Shown here in pieces: positions 8,939 to 14,675 of a DNA stretch of 43,987 nucleotides. How positions within the stretch are numbered: the stretch's first letter is position 1; every line of letters starts with the position of its first letter. This stretch comes from a virus. The DNA lies in the IMG/VR virus record IMGVR_UViG_3300045970_001080, positions 1 to 43,987 of that record; one strand, 5' to 3'. The notes under the pieces are model-generated. The model was not told the origin of the DNA, did not search any database, and was given only the letters and a program-made list of their open reading frames with translations. The position numbers were made by a program, and so were the translations under genes.

Positions 8939-9445
8939 CTAAGAAACGTCAGGACATTCAGGCCCTTTAACTGACGAGTTTTTTTTCTTTCTAAATAAGC
9001 GATGGTAAGACCTGAGTTTCACATACCTTTGAAAATCCTTTTCCAAAAGATCACTATTATCCTGTGATAAATTGTATTTTTCAATAAATATCTGAATTGC
9101 ATCCTGGCGATCGAGACCTAAAACGATATATTTTGAGATCTCTCCCCGGTATGTGATCTTGAAAAACTTCGAGATCTCCTTGATCAGTATCCGTTGCTTT
9201 GTCGGAGACAGGTAATTATTGAAAAGCACATTCTTATTTTCAAAGTAAGGAATCCGGATCTCCAGAACTTTTTCTCCGATTTCCGGCTGCTTGAATTCCA
9301 ATGGAGGTTTATCCAGGAATACATCAAGCATCGTGTTGAAGTTTGAATTCTTGGGGAACGATATCGGTGATGGTCCGTAAAGTGTTTCAAGGAACTTAAC
9401 CAGGTATGGTTCGCACTTAAGTTTGATGGTGATTGGTGATCCCAT
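8939..9445 (-). CDS. Hypothetical protein, first gene of the late region
   Basis: 168 residues, basic C-terminus (RKKKNSS), mostly helical, no signal peptide. The segment QRILIKEISKFFKITYR could be DNA-binding. Promoter P1 ends 4 nt before the ATG, so the mRNA is probably leaderless. A late regulator or small-terminase-like role is possible from position, but the family is not recognised. Confidence 0.6.
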   Translation of the reverse strand: MGSPITIKLKCEPYLVKFLETLYGPSPISFPKNSNFNTMLDVFLDKPPLEFKQPEIGEKVLEIRIPYFENKNVLFNNYLSPTKQRILIKEISKFFKITYRGEISKYIVLGLDRQDAIQIFIEKYNLSQDNSDLLEKDFQRYVKLRSYHRLFRKKKNSSVKGPECPDVS

Positions 9446-9449
9446 AATG

Positions 9450-9485
9450 CAATATTAGTTTTGTGTATGTTTATTTTAAAGGTCA
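9450..9485 (-). promoter_or_regulatory. Putative late promoter P1
   Basis: Leftward TGACCTTT (9485-9478), 20 nt, TAATATTG (9457-9450). Only 4 nt (CATT) separate the -7 box from the ATG at 9445, so the start codon would be at or next to the first transcribed base. Confidence 0.65.
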
Positions 9486-9599
9486 ATGAACTGGTACCTA
9501 CATATAGGTATTTAAAAGCAAAAATCCAACACTAACTGAATATTTTCAAGAGCAAAAAAAAACAGTTGCGCAAGTGGCAGGGATACTTGGTATAAAAGC

Positions 9600-9890
9600 C
9601 AAAAATATTCGTGCAGTAGTACTTTAGTACTTTTAATTTTCAACTATCTGATTATCAATACTCACAAAAATTAGTACCGATTTTCGTGCGATTCGTGCAA
9701 CTCGTGCGATTTTCGTGCAGTAAAAAACACGCTCATAAAACTTGAAATTCAGATCGTTACAAAATTTTTAAATTCGTGCGCACTAAAGCACGAATATTTC
9801 CTTATTTTCTTATAAGTATACTTGTCAAAAAGATAAAATAATAAATAATATATATATGTATAAGGGAATCAACTTGTTAAAAATCTGAAC
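9600..9890. other. Candidate replication origin: TTCGTGC iterons plus AT-rich stretch
   Basis: Seven copies of a 7-mer lie in 190 bp: TTCGTGC at 9608, 9683, 9692, 9712 and 9773, CTCGTGC at 9701, and the inverse GCACGAA at 9788. The cluster at 9683-9718 is spaced 9, 9 and 11 bp; the last two copies form an inverted repeat with an 8-bp gap. The next 60 bp (about 9810-9870) are almost pure A/T. Iterons next to an AT-rich unwinding region are typical of theta origins. No replication initiator was recognised apart from the primase-helicase. Confidence 0.5.
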
Positions 9891-9966
9891 CCGTACCTTT
9901 GCACTATAAATTTTCATGAAAAAAAGGGGGCGGCGGGGTGAAAACACCCCGAAGGAAGCATTTTAA
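9874..9966 (+). promoter_or_regulatory. Rightward promoter with very short ORF or small RNA
   Basis: TTG (9874-9876), 17 nt, TACCTTTG (9894-9901) is a near-canonical Bacteroidota promoter. It points right although all genes ahead are leftward. The transcript would contain ATG at 9916 opening a 16-codon basic peptide (MKKRGRRGENTPKEAF) that ends at 9966, and a GGGGTG/CACCCC hairpin around 9935-9950. It could be a leader peptide, a small RNA or an origin transcript. Confidence 0.5.
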
Positions 9967-10023
9967 TAAGGAGTTCGTACTGAGCTATGTCCGCTATCGC
10001 TCCCATATCTCACCACTAACAAA

Positions 10024-10050
10024 TTAAAAAGCCAGGCGAAATGCCTGGCT
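10024..10050 (-). terminator. Terminator of the leftward early operon
   Basis: GCCAGGC (10031-10037), loop of 5, GCCTGGC (10043-10049). Read leftward it is followed by TTTTTAA. It lies about 50 bp past the last early gene. Confidence 0.85.
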
Positions 10051-10096
10051 TAGATCTGGCCGAAAGGATGCTGAGCATTGACCGGTGGGAGATCGT

Positions 10097-10492
10097 TTAA
10101 CCTAGAGGAGATAATGCGGCCGTATTGTCAGCAATGTCGAGAACTTTGAACGCAATCGTACGCATATCTGCAAGATGTTTCTCTGTGGCCACCAATTTGC
10201 CGGTGAGCAGATTTTCGTTTTCAGTCTTTAACTGATGTTTTGATGCATAGTCAACCATCAGGCGCAGGAACTCTTTGAAAAGCCGATCACTGATTTTCAT
10301 GAATGGCTTTACCTTGCCTGATTGATCCGTTGTGCCTGATCTGATGTACGTGTCAGATTCATGCCTGAATACACCCTGGATCGCGGGATCCTCCGAATGA
10401 GTGGTGTAAAAGCAATCAGTCCCATTCATTGGATCTACCAGCCACACATCAATGGTGCGGCTATCGAAATGTTCATTTACGTATAATTCCAT
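10097..10492 (-). CDS. Hypothetical early protein, last gene of the operon
   Basis: 131 residues. The first half is beta-rich (VWLVDPMNGTDCFY); the second half is a long helix likely to form a coiled coil. No signal peptide or membrane segment. It lies downstream of the DGR and an OB-fold-like gene. Function not recognised; a DGR accessory role cannot be excluded because no classical Avd gene is present. Confidence 0.55.
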   Translation of the reverse strand: MELYVNEHFDSRTIDVWLVDPMNGTDCFYTTHSEDPAIQGVFRHESDTYIRSGTTDQSGKVKPFMKISDRLFKEFLRLMVDYASKHQLKTENENLLTGKLVATEKHLADMRTIAFKVLDIADNTAALSPLG

Positions 10493-10507
10493 TGTTGCTA
10501 TTTTTGT

Positions 10508-10825
10508 TTATCGAACAATTACTTCTTCATCCCTTAAAACTGATAACTGCCGGCACCCGTCATGGATCACCAGGACCTTCTTCCCCACTGGGGGGATGTG
10601 ATCAAACTCGGTTAACTCAATCACCTTAGTGACGGTCCGGAATTTTCTTTGACCTGGAAGTTTAAATTCCTGGCCAGGATTTAATTCATTTGCTTTCATT
10701 TTCTGGTTTTTAGCGCATTTCCCTTCACCCCAGTTATATCCCTTGTCATTGACAACATTTTTTTGACATTCATCAGACATGCATGCATGATATACACAGG
10801 CCCATTCGCTTGTATGGCAAATCAT
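10508..10825 (-). CDS. Hypothetical Cys-containing small early protein
   Basis: 105 residues. The N-terminal 40 residues contain five cysteines and several histidines (C-T-S, C-V-Y-H-A-C, C-Q, C-A), compatible with a small metal site. The C-terminal part is a compact beta domain with PGQEFKLPGQRKF. The ATG overlaps the previous stop (ATGA), which supports the start and coupling. Function not recognised. Confidence 0.55.
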   Translation of the reverse strand: MICHTSEWACVYHACMSDECQKNVVNDKGYNWGEGKCAKNQKMKANELNPGQEFKLPGQRKFRTVTKVIELTEFDHIPPVGKKVLVIHDGCRQLSVLRDEEVIVR

Positions 10826-11118
10826 GTGAATAAAAATCTTTCCCCCTCCTGAATGATTGTAGTTTCGAACGGAAACCCATCCTCAGGAATCTGTGTTATT
10901 ACTTCGATCATACCGCAGGCCGAAGTAAATACAATATGTTTGACCCCTCCAACAGAGATCTGCAGGTACAGGCACTTCCCATCCCTGAAGCATTTCGAAT
11001 CTTCAAGCTTGAAATCATGCACTATAATTTCTCGATTCAGGATCTTCGACATCTTAATCTTGTCACCTTCGAAAATCTTCGACACAGGCTGAACATTGAA
11101 TTGGCTAAACTTTTTCAT
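10822..11118 (-). CDS. Small beta-rich protein downstream of DGR RT, OB-fold-like
   Basis: 98 residues dominated by predicted strands, with GDKIKMSKILNREIIVHDF followed by KCLYLQISVGGVKHIVFTSA. This pattern is compatible with a small OB-fold single-strand binder, but that is a guess from sequence character. It overlaps the reverse transcriptase stop by 14 nt, so the two are probably translated together. Whether it helps cDNA synthesis or simply serves phage replication is unknown. Confidence 0.45.
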   Translation of the reverse strand: MKKFSQFNVQPVSKIFEGDKIKMSKILNREIIVHDFKLEDSKCFRDGKCLYLQISVGGVKHIVFTSACGMIEVITQIPEDGFPFETTIIQEGERFLFT

Positions 11119-12064
11119 TCAACAATTTTTTCATAAGGTTCTTACTGTTACAATGCGATGCCCATCCGTTGTAGGATGCTATTGAAGCTGCATTGCGGTT
11201 CCGGGCAATCATCCTGGCAAAATTCTGCTTGATCGTTTTCCTGAGCTTGGTATGGGTATGGTAAAATACGTACCCCACGAAGTCAATGCCGCGGGCATTA
11301 ACCGGGAATACCTGATAGTTGCTTTTCACCTCGAGCTTTAATTTCTCCTGCAGGTAAATCCGGATATCGGAAAGCAGCTGGTGGAGATATGGTTTATCAT
11401 CCGACAGGATCACCAGGTCATCGGCATATCGGAAATAATATTTAACCCTGCGATCTTCTTTGATCCAGTGATCAAAATATGACAAGTAAAAGTTGGCAAA
11501 ATACTGACTCAGGTAGTTTCCGATCGGCAGGCCATCGGCGCTGTCGATGATCCCGTCAAGCAGCCAGAGCAGATCCTGGTCTTTAATCTTCCTGCGAAGC
11601 AGCTGCTTGAGCACATCGTGATCCACATTCGGATAGAACTTCCGGATATCGAGCTTCAGGCAGAACTGTGTGCCCTGCAGATCCTTCAGCGCTGATCTCA
11701 CCGCATAGGCAGCCGCATGGATCCCTTTGCCTTTGATGCAACTGTACGTGTCGGCCGTGAACACGGAGACGAATACCGGTTCCAGGATATTCATGACGGC
11801 GTGGTGGGTGATACGGTCCGGAAAGTATGGCAGACGGAAAATGATCCTTTCTTTGGGCTCGTAGATCGGAAATGTAGTGTATTCAGAGGTTTGATAAGTC
11901 TTCTCAACGAGCATTTTCTGAAGTGCGAGTATGTTTTCCTCGCGGCACCGGTCATGCTCAATCACGCCTGGCTGTTTTAATTTCCCCTTCCGGGCAATTG
12001 AATCGGCCAGCTGCAGGTTTTCCAGGCTGCAGATCCGTGCATATAAGTTATTGATTCTTCTCAT
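11105..12064 (-). CDS. Reverse transcriptase of a diversity-generating retroelement
   Basis: 319 residues. RT motifs in order: GKGIHAA (112-118), KLDIRKFYPNVDH (137-149, first catalytic Asp), LPIGNYLSQ (179-187) and YADD (213-216, catalytic Asp pair). LPIGNYLSQ in place of the PQG-type motif of group II introns is typical of DGR enzymes. No maturase or endonuclease domain follows. The enzyme copies the template RNA with adenine-specific errors, and the cDNA replaces the variable repeat. It lies 104 nt downstream of the template repeat, in the same operon as both targets. Confidence 0.93.
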   Translation of the reverse strand: MRRINNLYARICSLENLQLADSIARKGKLKQPGVIEHDRCREENILALQKMLVEKTYQTSEYTTFPIYEPKERIIFRLPYFPDRITHHAVMNILEPVFVSVFTADTYSCIKGKGIHAAAYAVRSALKDLQGTQFCLKLDIRKFYPNVDHDVLKQLLRRKIKDQDLLWLLDGIIDSADGLPIGNYLSQYFANFYLSYFDHWIKEDRRVKYYFRYADDLVILSDDKPYLHQLLSDIRIYLQEKLKLEVKSNYQVFPVNARGIDFVGYVFYHTHTKLRKTIKQNFARMIARNRNAASIASYNGWASHCNSKNLMKKLLNEKV

Positions 12065-12167
12065 TTGCTTTGCTTGTTAAAAAATCGTTTTCCCCTGCGG
12101 GTACCAACGATTTTCTTCATTCCTTTTATTTTTTGCCGTGTTGGCAGGGTTTACGCTGCGAAATACT

Positions 12168-12254
12168 GCATAGGTGAGAGCTGACATTCGTATTCGAGTT
12201 ATCGTAATTGTAATTCGTGTTCGAAAAATCGAACCTGGACCTGGAGGGCAGGAC
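12168..12254 (-). repeat. DGR template repeat (TR), 87 bp
   Basis: Non-coding segment between the second target gene and the RT gene. It aligns without gaps to both variable repeats. On the transcribed strand it has 23 adenines; 19 differ in at least one variable repeat, and none of the other 64 positions differs. Read in the target frame it is rich in AAC/AAT codons (N-T-N-Y-N-Y-D-N-S-N-T-N), as is typical of DGR templates. Open frames across it are shadows, not genes. Confidence 0.95.
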
Positions 12255-12285
12255 TGACAGCTGAGCAGCATACAACCGGTACATG

Positions 12286-12696
12286 TTATTTTGTAATTAA
12301 GAAAATCTCTTTGTACTCTCCACTGAATGTATTGGCGATATACAGCGCTACTTCACTTGAATGTGTGCAAAGGCGAGAGCCGACAGCCGTACTCGAGCGA
12401 TCGTAATCGTAATACGTGCCCGAAAAATCGAACCCGGACCCGGAGGGCAGGACCCTGAACCATGGATAATACTTTCCTTGATTGCCATTGCCATAATCCG
12501 CAATCCAACCATTATTGATCGCCTTGTAAATAACATACAGCTTGTACATGTTGATGATCGAACGGCGGAACTCCTCCGGGATCAAGGTTACATCTGGCAG
12601 AATGGCCGGATCAATGTTTTCCTTCTTACAGGCATCTTCAAACGACTTAATCGTTTTGAAATCGAACTTTGAGTCCTTTGGTGATTTTGTTTTCAT
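12286..12696 (-). CDS. DGR target protein 1 (variable protein)
   Basis: 136 residues without a signal peptide. The C-terminal region GKYYPWFRVLPSGSGFDFS through VGSRLC is the diversified segment, followed by about 25 constant residues. The N-terminal half is helical and related to that of target 2. Variable residues lie mainly at the run after DFS (G, Y, Y, D, R, S, A positions). The KYYPWF...SGFxFS...VGSRLC pattern belongs to a family common in Bacteroidota phages. A binding surface is inferred; the ligand is unknown. It lies between target 2 and the template repeat. Confidence 0.88.
   Translation of the reverse strand: MKTKSPKDSKFDFKTIKSFEDACKKENIDPAILPDVTLIPEEFRRSIINMYKLYVIYKAINNGWIADYGNGNQGKYYPWFRVLPSGSGFDFSGTYYDYDRSSTAVGSRLCTHSSEVALYIANTFSGEYKEIFLITK
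12367..12453 (-). repeat. DGR variable repeat 1 (VR1)
   Basis: 87 bp aligned to the template repeat with 14 differences, all at template adenines. It encodes the diversified part of target protein 1, from VLPSGSGF to VGSRLC. Confidence 0.94.
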
Positions 12697-12704
12697 TTTG
12701 GTGT

Positions 12705-13184
12705 TTATTTGGTTAATAAAAAATCTTCATACAATGATGTGAACTGCTTTGCAACGTATTCACATTTCTCGCTGCTTTCAAAGCAAAGGCGAGAGCCGAC
12801 ACCCGTACACGAGAGAACGTAACTGTAATGCGCGTTCGAAAAACCGAACCCGGACCCGGAGGGCAGGACATTAAACCACGGATAATACTTGGCCTGGCTG
12901 GTGTTACTCCAGTCAGGTTTCCATCCTTCGTTAATTACCTTGACGATAAGCTTCAGCTTTTTATACGCTACTACATCAGGGGTATCAGTAGTGAATAATT
13001 GACAGTCAATACGAGTCTGATCATCTGCCTCCATGTATGCCTGATCATACGTTTTGATACGGTCAATGATTTTACCGGAAAAACATTCATTTCCGAATGT
13101 ATCACTGAGAATTTTCTTGAACCATTCCGGAGCTTCCTGGAATAGTTTCTTTGCTGTGGATTTCTCCAGTTTTAATGTTTCCAT
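12705..13184 (-). CDS. DGR target protein 2 (variable protein)
   Basis: 159 residues, no signal peptide. The N-terminal 90 residues are helical, ending in KVINEGWKPDW. The diversified segment follows (KYYPWFNVLPSGSGFGFS to VGSRLCFESSE), then a helical end, YVAKQFTSLYEDFLL. It is homologous to target 1, 8 nt upstream of it, so the pair arose by duplication. Target 2 keeps the more typical C-terminus of the family (SRLCFxSSE...YVAKQF). Confidence 0.88.
   Translation of the reverse strand: METLKLEKSTAKKLFQEAPEWFKKILSDTFGNECFSGKIIDRIKTYDQAYMEADDQTRIDCQLFTTDTPDVVAYKKLKLIVKVINEGWKPDWSNTSQAKYYPWFNVLPSGSGFGFSNAHYSYVLSCTGVGSRLCFESSEKCEYVAKQFTSLYEDFLLTK
12783..12869 (-). repeat. DGR variable repeat 2 (VR2)
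   Basis: 87 bp aligned to the template repeat with 16 differences, all at template adenines. It differs from VR1 at 11 positions, so the two targets have been mutagenised independently. Confidence 0.94.
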
Positions 13185-13201
13185 TTGTTTGTTTTTAAAG
13201 A

Positions 13202-13822
13202 TTAATTCTTGATTTTATAGTGTGTTTTCCCAACTCCATTCGTAATCTTCACATACATGCCCCGCTCAGGGATCCCCGGGATCCTGCGCCCAACCATGTC
13301 ATAATATTCAATCTTATTCTGGTGACCAGGATTGTCCATGTCAGCAATGCCCACAGTGGTGATATCGATCATTGATACATTGTCAACTTTCATCCAGGGA
13401 TCAAGTATTGTAGTTACAAAAGCGATTCTCACCAAACTTGTATTTGGATGATAAAAGTTGAATGAATAATGCTGCATGGTTGCCGTTGGGAGCATATACA
13501 ATGGAGAATATCCATTCCCTTCGTCCCAATACACACAGAAGTTCGTATATACGTTGCTTAGAAAATCAAATTCAACGTGGTACGTTTTCCCGGCTGTTCC
13601 GGTTAGATTTAAATGCTGTGTAAGAATAGCCTGATACGGACTGCTGGCATATTGTGCGCCATCCTCAATCCAATATTCGTAAGTCATAACACTTACTTCC
13701 CAGGGATAAGCAAGGCTGTCATTATTTATCCCGGGTTCCATGGTCCCGTTGACAATGATGTTTTGCGACTGAGCTGCGAATCCGAACAGGACTACAAGCA
13801 GCGCAATGATTAGTGTTTTCAT
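13202..13822 (-). CDS. Secreted protein with T9SS-like C-terminal sorting domain
   Basis: 206 residues. Residues 1-19 are a signal peptide ending in AAQSQ. Residues about 20-160 look like a jelly-roll carbohydrate-binding module (NGTMEPG start, VDNVSMIDI end), a common CBM outline. Residues about 170-206, EYYDMVGRRIPGI, GMYVKITN and a final KI, match the layout of type A C-terminal signals of the type IX secretion system (YDxxGR...G.Y.xK...). The protein is therefore probably exported and displayed on, or released from, the host surface. It sits in the early operon immediately upstream of the DGR targets. Confidence 0.75.
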   Translation of the reverse strand: MKTLIIALLVVLFGFAAQSQNIIVNGTMEPGINNDSLAYPWEVSVMTYEYWIEDGAQYASSPYQAILTQHLNLTGTAGKTYHVEFDFLSNVYTNFCVYWDEGNGYSPLYMLPTATMQHYSFNFYHPNTSLVRIAFVTTILDPWMKVDNVSMIDITTVGIADMDNPGHQNKIEYYDMVGRRIPGIPERGMYVKITNGVGKTHYKIKN

Positions 13823-13832
13823 GTGTTTTGTT

Positions 13833-13934
13833 TTAAAGATTTCTTACTATTTCTGGTCTTTTTGTAATTAAAACATTGCAGTTCTTTGCTTCTTCTGCAA
13901 GTTTCTTCAGTTTGGCATGAAAGTCATCAGCCAT
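13833..13934 (-). CDS. Very small coupled gene (33 residues)
   Basis: Starts at an ATG that shares its A with the stop of the upstream zinc-finger gene (TAATG), a coupling arrangement used elsewhere in this genome. The product (MADDFHAKLKKLAEEAKN...) is amphipathic and helical. A longer frame starting at 14015 exists but overlaps the upstream gene by 82 nt. Function unknown. Confidence 0.5.
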   Translation of the reverse strand: MADDFHAKLKKLAEEAKNCNVLITKRPEIVRNL

Positions 13935-14302
13935 TAAAAGTGGTGCCCCTCCAAGGGTTCCTGGCTCACCACAGATGACTGATTCAACGATTTCTTTTTT
14001 TTTACGGGGTTGCATTCATCGCTGCAATACATTTGTCGGTTGCATGACGGATGGAACATTTTTTTGCATTCCTTGCATTTTTTCACAAGAACCACCGGTG
14101 GTTTAATTTTCTCATCTGCAGGGGGGGGTATCAAGGGTTCCACAGCAGTAATTGCAGGAACTGGTTCTTTACATGCCTTGACAATTTCCTTTGCAAAACT
14201 TAATACCTTGATCGCTGTCTGAACATTTTTTAATCGCCTTTGAAGTTGTTTTTCCGTTTCCTTCAATTGAGCAATGATTTCGATTTCCATTTCCGGTTTC
14301 AT
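13934..14302 (-). CDS. Coiled-coil protein with a small zinc finger
   Basis: 122 residues. Residues 1-45 form a charged helix (ETEKQLQRRLKNVQTAIK). A Pro-rich linker follows. Residues about 75-100 hold CKECKKMF...CNRQMYCSDEC, a treble-clef-like set of cysteines. A nucleic-acid or protein adapter role in replication is likely but unspecified. The start codon is preceded by a (CA)12 tract on the coding strand, which may affect translation. Confidence 0.6.
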   Translation of the reverse strand: MKPEMEIEIIAQLKETEKQLQRRLKNVQTAIKVLSFAKEIVKACKEPVPAITAVEPLIPPPADEKIKPPVVLVKKCKECKKMFHPSCNRQMYCSDECNPVKKKKSLNQSSVVSQEPLEGHHF

Positions 14303-14306
14303 AATT

Positions 14307-14330
14307 GTGTGTGTGTGTGTGTGTGTGTGT
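14307..14330. repeat. Dinucleotide repeat (GT)12
   Basis: Twelve uninterrupted GT units lie 5-28 nt ahead of the start codon at 14302, reading as (AC)12 on the coding strand. The A-rich ACACAAT-ATG leader style is common in this genome, so part of the tract may be functional leader that has expanded by slippage. Confidence 0.95.
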
Positions 14331-14399
14331 TTGTTTGCTTGTTTATAAAGCCACCACCCGGCACCCGGCAGTGGTTTCTATTTATTGGCTGATTATCTA

Positions 14400-14675
14400 T
14401 TAAGAACGATGTGCCTGGCAACCGCCTGCAGCAGTGAGGAGTTTTGAATCACCCTGCAGGGTTGTGGTTGATGCTTTTATATTGTCAACTTCTTCAATAA
14501 CTTCATTCAGCATTTGTAGCCCATTCTCCCATGCTGGAAGCATCCATGGCATCTTTGCTCCCTTAAATGGAACAATACCTTTTTCGACAGCGATCAGGTG
14601 CTCATAGGCTTGCTTTCTTTGCTGACGGGACGAGGCAGATAAGGAACTGAAGAATGATTTGATATCGCTTTTCAT
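14400..14675 (-). CDS. Hypothetical small early protein after primase
   Basis: 91 residues; an N-terminal helical segment rich in Ser, Arg and Gln (SSRQQRKQAYEHL) followed by a mixed region. Its ATG overlaps the primase-helicase stop (ATGA), indicating coupled translation. A replication accessory role is suggested by position only. Confidence 0.6.
   Translation of the reverse strand: MKSDIKSFFSSLSASSRQQRKQAYEHLIAVEKGIVPFKGAKMPWMLPAWENGLQMLNEVIEEVDNIKASTTTLQGDSKLLTAAGGCQAHRS

Follow-up and report, generated by a model that had tools for sequence, protein, structure and literature searches.

A phage diversity-generating retroelement with one template repeat, two tandem target genes and a covarying spacer RNA

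The virus record IMGVR_UViG_3300045970_001080 is a contig of 43,987 bases, and the whole of this stretch, referred to as the window, was analysed. The window encodes an integrase, a tape measure protein, an S49 protease, a lysozyme, and a protein containing a CHC2 primase zinc finger, indicating that it belongs to a temperate tailed phage. In the current view, diversity-generating retroelements (DGRs) vary C-lectin surfaces, which in phages belong mostly to tail proteins. The DGR cassette of the window is located on the minus strand, where its parts follow one another in the order TP2, TP1, template repeat (TR), and reverse transcriptase (RT), and each of the two target genes contains one variable repeat (VR). 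The features of the locus are the following:

12705-13184, minus strand: TP2, the RT-distal target gene, 159 aa, phrog_11581 (function unknown), orthologous to the RT-distal targets of relatives
12783-12869, minus strand: VR2, the variable repeat in TP2, differing from TR at 16 positions, all of them template A
12286-12696, minus strand: TP1, the RT-proximal target gene, 136 aa, phrog_11581 (function unknown), placed by its profile match and the target tree
12367-12453, minus strand: VR1, the variable repeat in TP1, differing from TR at 14 positions, all of them template A
12168-12254, minus strand: TR, the template repeat, 87 nt, defined by repeat alignment
12168-12182, minus strand: IMH*-like 3' end of TR, AGCTCTCACCTATGC as opposed to GGCTCTCGCCTTTGC in both VRs, with fixed differences at TR 73, 80, and 84; the IMH role is putative
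12081-12146, minus strand: structured spacer RNA between TR and RT, predicted from covariation, with a covariance model match at 12043-12175
12134-12146 and 12081-12114, minus strand: hairpin and long stem of the spacer RNA, respectively, predicted from covariation
11105-12064, minus strand: DGR reverse transcriptase, 319 aa, with YADD and LPIGNYLSQ motifs and matches to RVT_1 and phrog_1423
10822-11118, minus strand: candidate accessory gene overlapping the 3' end of the RT gene, 98 aa, phrog_19665, found at the same position in 88 of 103 RT loci

The coordinates given in a first-pass annotation of this DNA were exact when rechecked, and both RT motifs that it named are present in the open reading frame at 11105-12064 on the minus strand. 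The SQ motif is a hallmark of the RTs of DGRs (PMC3521204). TR aligns without gaps to VR1, with 14 differences in 87 positions, and to VR2, with 16 differences in 87, which reproduces the earlier alignment. All 30 differences are at template adenines, of which TR has 23 among its 87 nucleotides. The probability of all differences falling on A by chance is 1.5e-10 for VR1 and 2e-12 for VR2. As previously claimed, the 64 non-adenine positions are the same in TR, VR1, and VR2. The two VRs differ from each other at 11 sites, and neither contains a stop codon. Nineteen template adenines are varied in VR1 or VR2, whereas those at TR 41, 44, 50, and 64 are unvaried in both. At TR 13, 19, 73, 80, and 84 both VRs carry the same other base (G, G, G, G, and T).

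Scans of IMG/VR yielded 28 loci by similarity to TP2 and, by similarity to the RT, the best 80 of 350 encoding a relative. About a hundred related virus sequences contain the same two-gene cassette. The number of targets was counted in the 84 loci with at least 1,450 bases before the RT; two tandem targets are present in 74 of them, three in six, and one in four. The spacing before the RT is nearly constant: for the most part, TR is located about 180 to 100 bases upstream, and the VRs about 375 and 790 bases. Further homologues of the targets are located several kilobases from the tandem pair in loci L082 (134-517), L066 (316-756), and L021 (2399-2746).

The restriction of changes to template adenines extends throughout the family. 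In 158 distinct TR/VR pairs, identified by a search that favours A mismatches, template A is changed in 2,284 of 3,389 cases (67%), and the other bases in 38 of 9,220 (0.4%). The changed adenines are replaced by G 1,329 times, by T 656 times, and by C 299 times. A position profile, which counts without scoring yet starts from pairs found by the A-favouring search, takes the Ser codon of the SRL motif as its reference point. Non-A mismatches are nearly absent from -58 to +9, a block of about 70 nt, and identity collapses beyond it. In diverged non-A columns, the VR base is that of its own TR by 79,398 to 461 comparisons, which are not independent of each other. Continual overwriting of both genes by the template, with divergence of their flanks, would lead to such agreement.

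The first-pass annotation had proposed counting population variants by template base. No near-identical contig of the window phage itself, sharing an exact 30-mer, was found; the count was made by proxy on contigs of relatives that have 0-2 differences in about 1,650-1,720 flanking bases. L041 and L034 differ in VR1 at 12 sites, all of them template A; L038 and L039 differ in VR3 at 13 sites, and L045 and L042 in VR2 at nine sites, again all template A. L037 and L034 differ in VR2 at 11 sites, nine of which are template A, and at the remaining two L037 has the template base. Over these pairs, 43 of 45 changes are at template A, the TRs are identical, and a single VR is altered in each closest pair, indicating that each target is rewritten independently. 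Together with the 11 differences between VR1 and VR2 in the window, these changes agree with the earlier proposal that the two repeats underwent separate rounds of mutagenesis. If the two non-A changes of L037 are resets to the template, the conversion tract would span at least -57 to -7.

Template adenines are of three kinds. Those in the interior of the repeat, from about -50 to -6, are replaced by G, T, and C across the family, and by this sequence pattern their variation is true diversification. At -58/-57, -51, -3, and +4, the VR almost invariably has G in place of the adenine (151 distinct pairs), and of 123 VRs, 121 have T in place of the adenine at +8. TR 13, 19, 73, 80, and 84 of the window belong to these fixed kinds. 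The earlier description of 19 variable sites, all template adenines, holds in that every site is at A, but five of the 19 are fixed family-wide, which leaves 14 sites with true A-to-N variation among 18 mutable template adenines. The G at -3 and at the 5' sites restores glycine (in GSGF and VGSRL), and that at +4 restores arginine; selection on the protein can therefore explain those sites. The same explanation was ruled out for position +8, the third position of a leucine codon, where the change is synonymous. A DNA-level difference of the IMH/IMH* kind would be the natural reading of +8. The fixed differences are located near the end of the homology, one of them synonymous, and the 3' difference between TR and VRs probably acts as an IMH. 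Third codon positions -1 and +2 vary between phages and match the phage's own TR in 151 of 151 pairs, which places the reach of copying, or of shared descent, at +2 or beyond.

Two relatives have unusual templates. The TR of L093, about 190-110 bases before its RT, has lost 10 of 16 consensus adenines and is changed at two of 28 other positions (hypergeometric P about 1.5e-4), while the adenines at +4 and +8 are kept; judged by its sequence, it looks like a template overwritten by its own mutated cDNA. The TR of L016 is ambiguous, with seven of 16 consensus adenines and eight of 28 other positions affected.

The conserved spacer between TR and RT has a hairpin (TGCC/GGCA) and a long stem with a GGUA/GAA internal loop. 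The covariation of this structure scores 0.412, compared to 0.177 for shuffled alignments and at most 0.148 for slid pairings. The single spacer of the window folds moderately better than shuffles (z -1.2), and the evidence for the structure is its covariation. A search of Rfam gave no match within window positions 9000-14500. A covariance model finds the spacer RNA before the RT in loci outside its training set, with E values of 8e-10 to 2e-20 in the genome loci L110-L112, L114, L115, L117, and L120. Weaker matches are positioned just before the RT in the crAss-like loci L122 (4396-4522), L123 (4405-4522), and L124 (4387-4522), and the spacer RNA may belong to a wider clade of DGRs. In phage BPP-1, a structured spacer recruits the complex of RT and Avd (PMC12875486), which suggests the same role for the spacer RNA described here.

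In the RT loci that have it, the candidate accessory open reading frame is 98-103 aa long and starts inside the 3' end of the RT gene. It has no match in Pfam or the PDB. Avd (PF05635) was not found in the window, and the 48 carrier records contain two matches below the cut-off and none above it. The RT-overlapping gene may replace Avd, as judged from its position. Further unnamed accessory proteins of DGRs are reportedly listed in a published survey.

The relationship of the two targets was analysed in a tree built without the VRs. The proximal and distal labels change 11 and 13 times on the tree, compared to about 51 times for shuffled labels, and a clade of 54 rows with SH-aLRT 99 includes 51 proximal targets. 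The alignment is short, the method quick, and one row (L098_d2) is an artefact, so that details of the tree are unsure, but the separation is clear and points to proximal and distal targets being old, separately evolving paralogues. Proteins similar to phrog_11581 are also encoded without a detected nearby DGR RT, in L118 (7079-7816 and 9836-10390), L119 (7594-8169), L015 (5953-6369), and L025; those of L118 and L119 are located among recombination genes.

AlphaFold models of TP2 and TP1 have mean pLDDT values of 85 and 83.5, with about 50-68 in the VR region, and TP1 is predicted to be arranged as helix, beta-hairpin, and helix. Foldseek searches of the PDB with the models, which are least certain in the VR, gave no match (best E values 4.4 and 5.3). 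Matches in BFVD are mostly uncharacterised phage proteins, among them every match with an E value of 0.001 or lower. No known domain was assigned convincingly by profile or Pfam searches. A lectin or another known fold was considered for the targets, and the Foldseek PDB, profile, and Pfam searches gave no convincing match; a C-lectin fold around the VR was not detected in the predicted models, but may be present. Comparison of TP1 with a tail target of a crAss-like phage yielded nothing. About 26 codons come after the VR. GC-rich hairpins or cruciforms with stems of 7-10 bp were searched for after the VR at 141 sites, where stem lengths are close to those of shuffles; the best stems in the window are 3 and 5 bp.

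The A-only differences between TR and VRs, the adjacent RT, and the family-wide pattern bear out the initial identification of a DGR with one template and two tandem targets. With high confidence, the locus can be read as a phage-borne DGR in both mechanism and architecture, the latter comprising two targets, one TR, a spacer RNA, an RT, and an accessory gene; no observation speaks against the mechanism. This set, with its structured spacer RNA and RT-overlapping gene, appears to be a clade-specific design. The RT would copy the transcript of TR and spacer with errors at template adenines, according to the established mechanism of DGRs, which is deduced here from the pattern in the sequence. 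The mutated cDNA would replace the matching VR in either target independently, as seen in relatives whose contigs are nearly identical. Copying would reach its 3' end close to the VR's IMH-like GGCTCTCGCCTTTGC; TR differs from this sequence, and the difference should protect TR from being overwritten. The spacer RNA, judged by its position and covariation, probably serves to recruit both the RT and the small protein whose gene overlaps it, the role that Avd has elsewhere. The two small targets would be ancient separate paralogues, in each of which a short stretch is varied.

Several other explanations bear on this reading. Three related repeats within 0.7 kb could be ordinary duplications with chance differences at A and no retroelement, but the chance values of 1.5e-10 and 2e-12, the adjacent RT, and the A pattern of the whole family make this practically negligible. 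It is very improbable that the cassette is the relic of a dead DGR in which diversification has stopped. The RT is intact, all 64 non-A positions of the VRs are preserved, the VRs have no stops, and they differ from each other at 11 sites; on the other side stand the search for near-identical contigs of the window phage, which found none, and the relative L093, which seems to have lost template A. The second target could be a redundant copy that provides dosage without a role of its own, which would fit the tandem arrangement and the shared VR sequence. DGR cassettes readily acquire paralogous targets (PMC3521204). However, the proximal and distal targets form separate old lineages that are kept together in most loci, and redundancy is an improbable explanation.

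A stronger alternative concerns the role of the targets. Diversified by the same DGR, TP1 and TP2 may be receptor binders at the virion tail tip that change host range, as Mtd of BPP-1 does; this is a considerable possibility, short of an even chance. Most of the targets published for viral DGR clades carry tail-protein annotations (PMC8144416), which counts against a non-virion role, and DGR variation tracks host range in phages of Bacteroides uniformis (PMC8143477). However, phrog_11581 has no assigned function and the targets have no tail-family match, and no tail family is among the 25 most frequent neighbours on either side of the cassette. The named neighbours are mostly methyltransferases, primases, integrases, terminases, portal proteins, RecT, and helicases; many others are unannotated, and genome position is weak evidence on the role of the targets. 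The cassette, including the accessory gene, is the only unit common to its carriers, which are phages with Mu-type portals, a sheath, and other types: among 48 carriers, a Mu-type portal is present in 14, a sheath in one, and a PF10145 tape measure in 15. Relatives of the targets outside DGRs, in Phocaeicola and Barnesiella contigs, are located beside genes for SbcC-like, HU, and SSB proteins, and a tail-fibre-like gene of the window lies apart from the cassette, about 14 kb away. The setting among replication, methylase, and packaging genes, the relatives among recombination genes, and the unrelated virion types lean towards non-virion targets. From this genomic evidence, it is somewhat more likely that the targets are non-virion intracellular binding proteins, acting in phage-host or phage-phage conflict, than that they are tail receptors.

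A more far-reaching proposal is that a widespread DGR, using a spacer RNA and an accessory protein in place of Avd, diversifies a fixed pair of intracellular, non-lectin, non-virion proteins as a variable repertoire of binders. Taken as a whole, this proposal is tentative and rather doubtful. If it is true, phages also direct hypermutation at proteins within the cell or at a new fold. The covarying spacer RNA and the RT-overlapping gene are two defined new parts open to testing. Because each target is rewritten separately, direct tests become possible of the way in which a single template supplies two genes and of the reason for retaining both.

The cassette shares with the DGR of BPP-1 (mtd, avd, TR, brt) the RT, the position of TR just before it, A-specific changes in the VR, an IMH/IMH*-like 3' boundary, and a structured spacer between TR and RT (PMC12875486, PMC3240598). 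In contrast to the single target and Avd of BPP-1, there are two targets and another small RT-overlapping gene here, the targets are small and without a detected lectin fold, roughly 26 codons come after the VR, and no post-VR hairpin exceeds chance. The crAss-like DGRs of cr55_1, cr52_1, and CrAssphage LMMB have RTs up to 57% identical and matches of the spacer RNA model before the RT (E values 5.3e-8, 4.5e-8, and 2.6e-4), whereas there a large gene annotated as tail or tail fibre adjoins the RT. In the crAss-like DGR loci, homologues were found neither for the small targets nor for the accessory gene.

The DGR of Quimbyviridae likewise belongs to Bacteroidota phages and has a target away from structural genes, near methyltransferases, and a non-structural second target has already been proposed for it (PMC8008677). 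Its two targets are far apart and both hold C-type lectin domains, unlike the small tandem targets described here, which have no detected lectin fold. Tentaclin DGRs also combine one phage DGR with two targets, but those have different topologies and C-lectin domains (PMC10743442), whereas the two small proteins here belong to one family. The multi-VR cassettes G2/G4 (PMC6642488) and DGRs with paralogous targets (PMC3521204) resemble the present one in having one TR and several paralogous targets; G2/G4 cassettes are enriched in Proteobacteria. As far as the available text of these two papers extends, they do not describe long-term orthology of paired targets, a spacer RNA, or this accessory gene. 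DGRs, multi-target DGRs, and a proposed non-structural target are thus already known from this literature; in the portions available, no description was found of a conserved cassette that combines paired paralogues with a covarying spacer RNA and a gene other than avd overlapping the RT.

Two further features were seen elsewhere in the window. An open reading frame of 206 aa upstream of TP2 (13202-13822, minus strand) has a signal-peptide-like start and, by eye, a C-terminus resembling T9SS sorting sequences; a T9SS sorting domain was rejected, as it has no significant Pfam or NCBIfam match. The AT-rich segment 9606-9795, without long open reading frames, contains iterated TTCGTGC-like motifs that may be operator or origin repeats.
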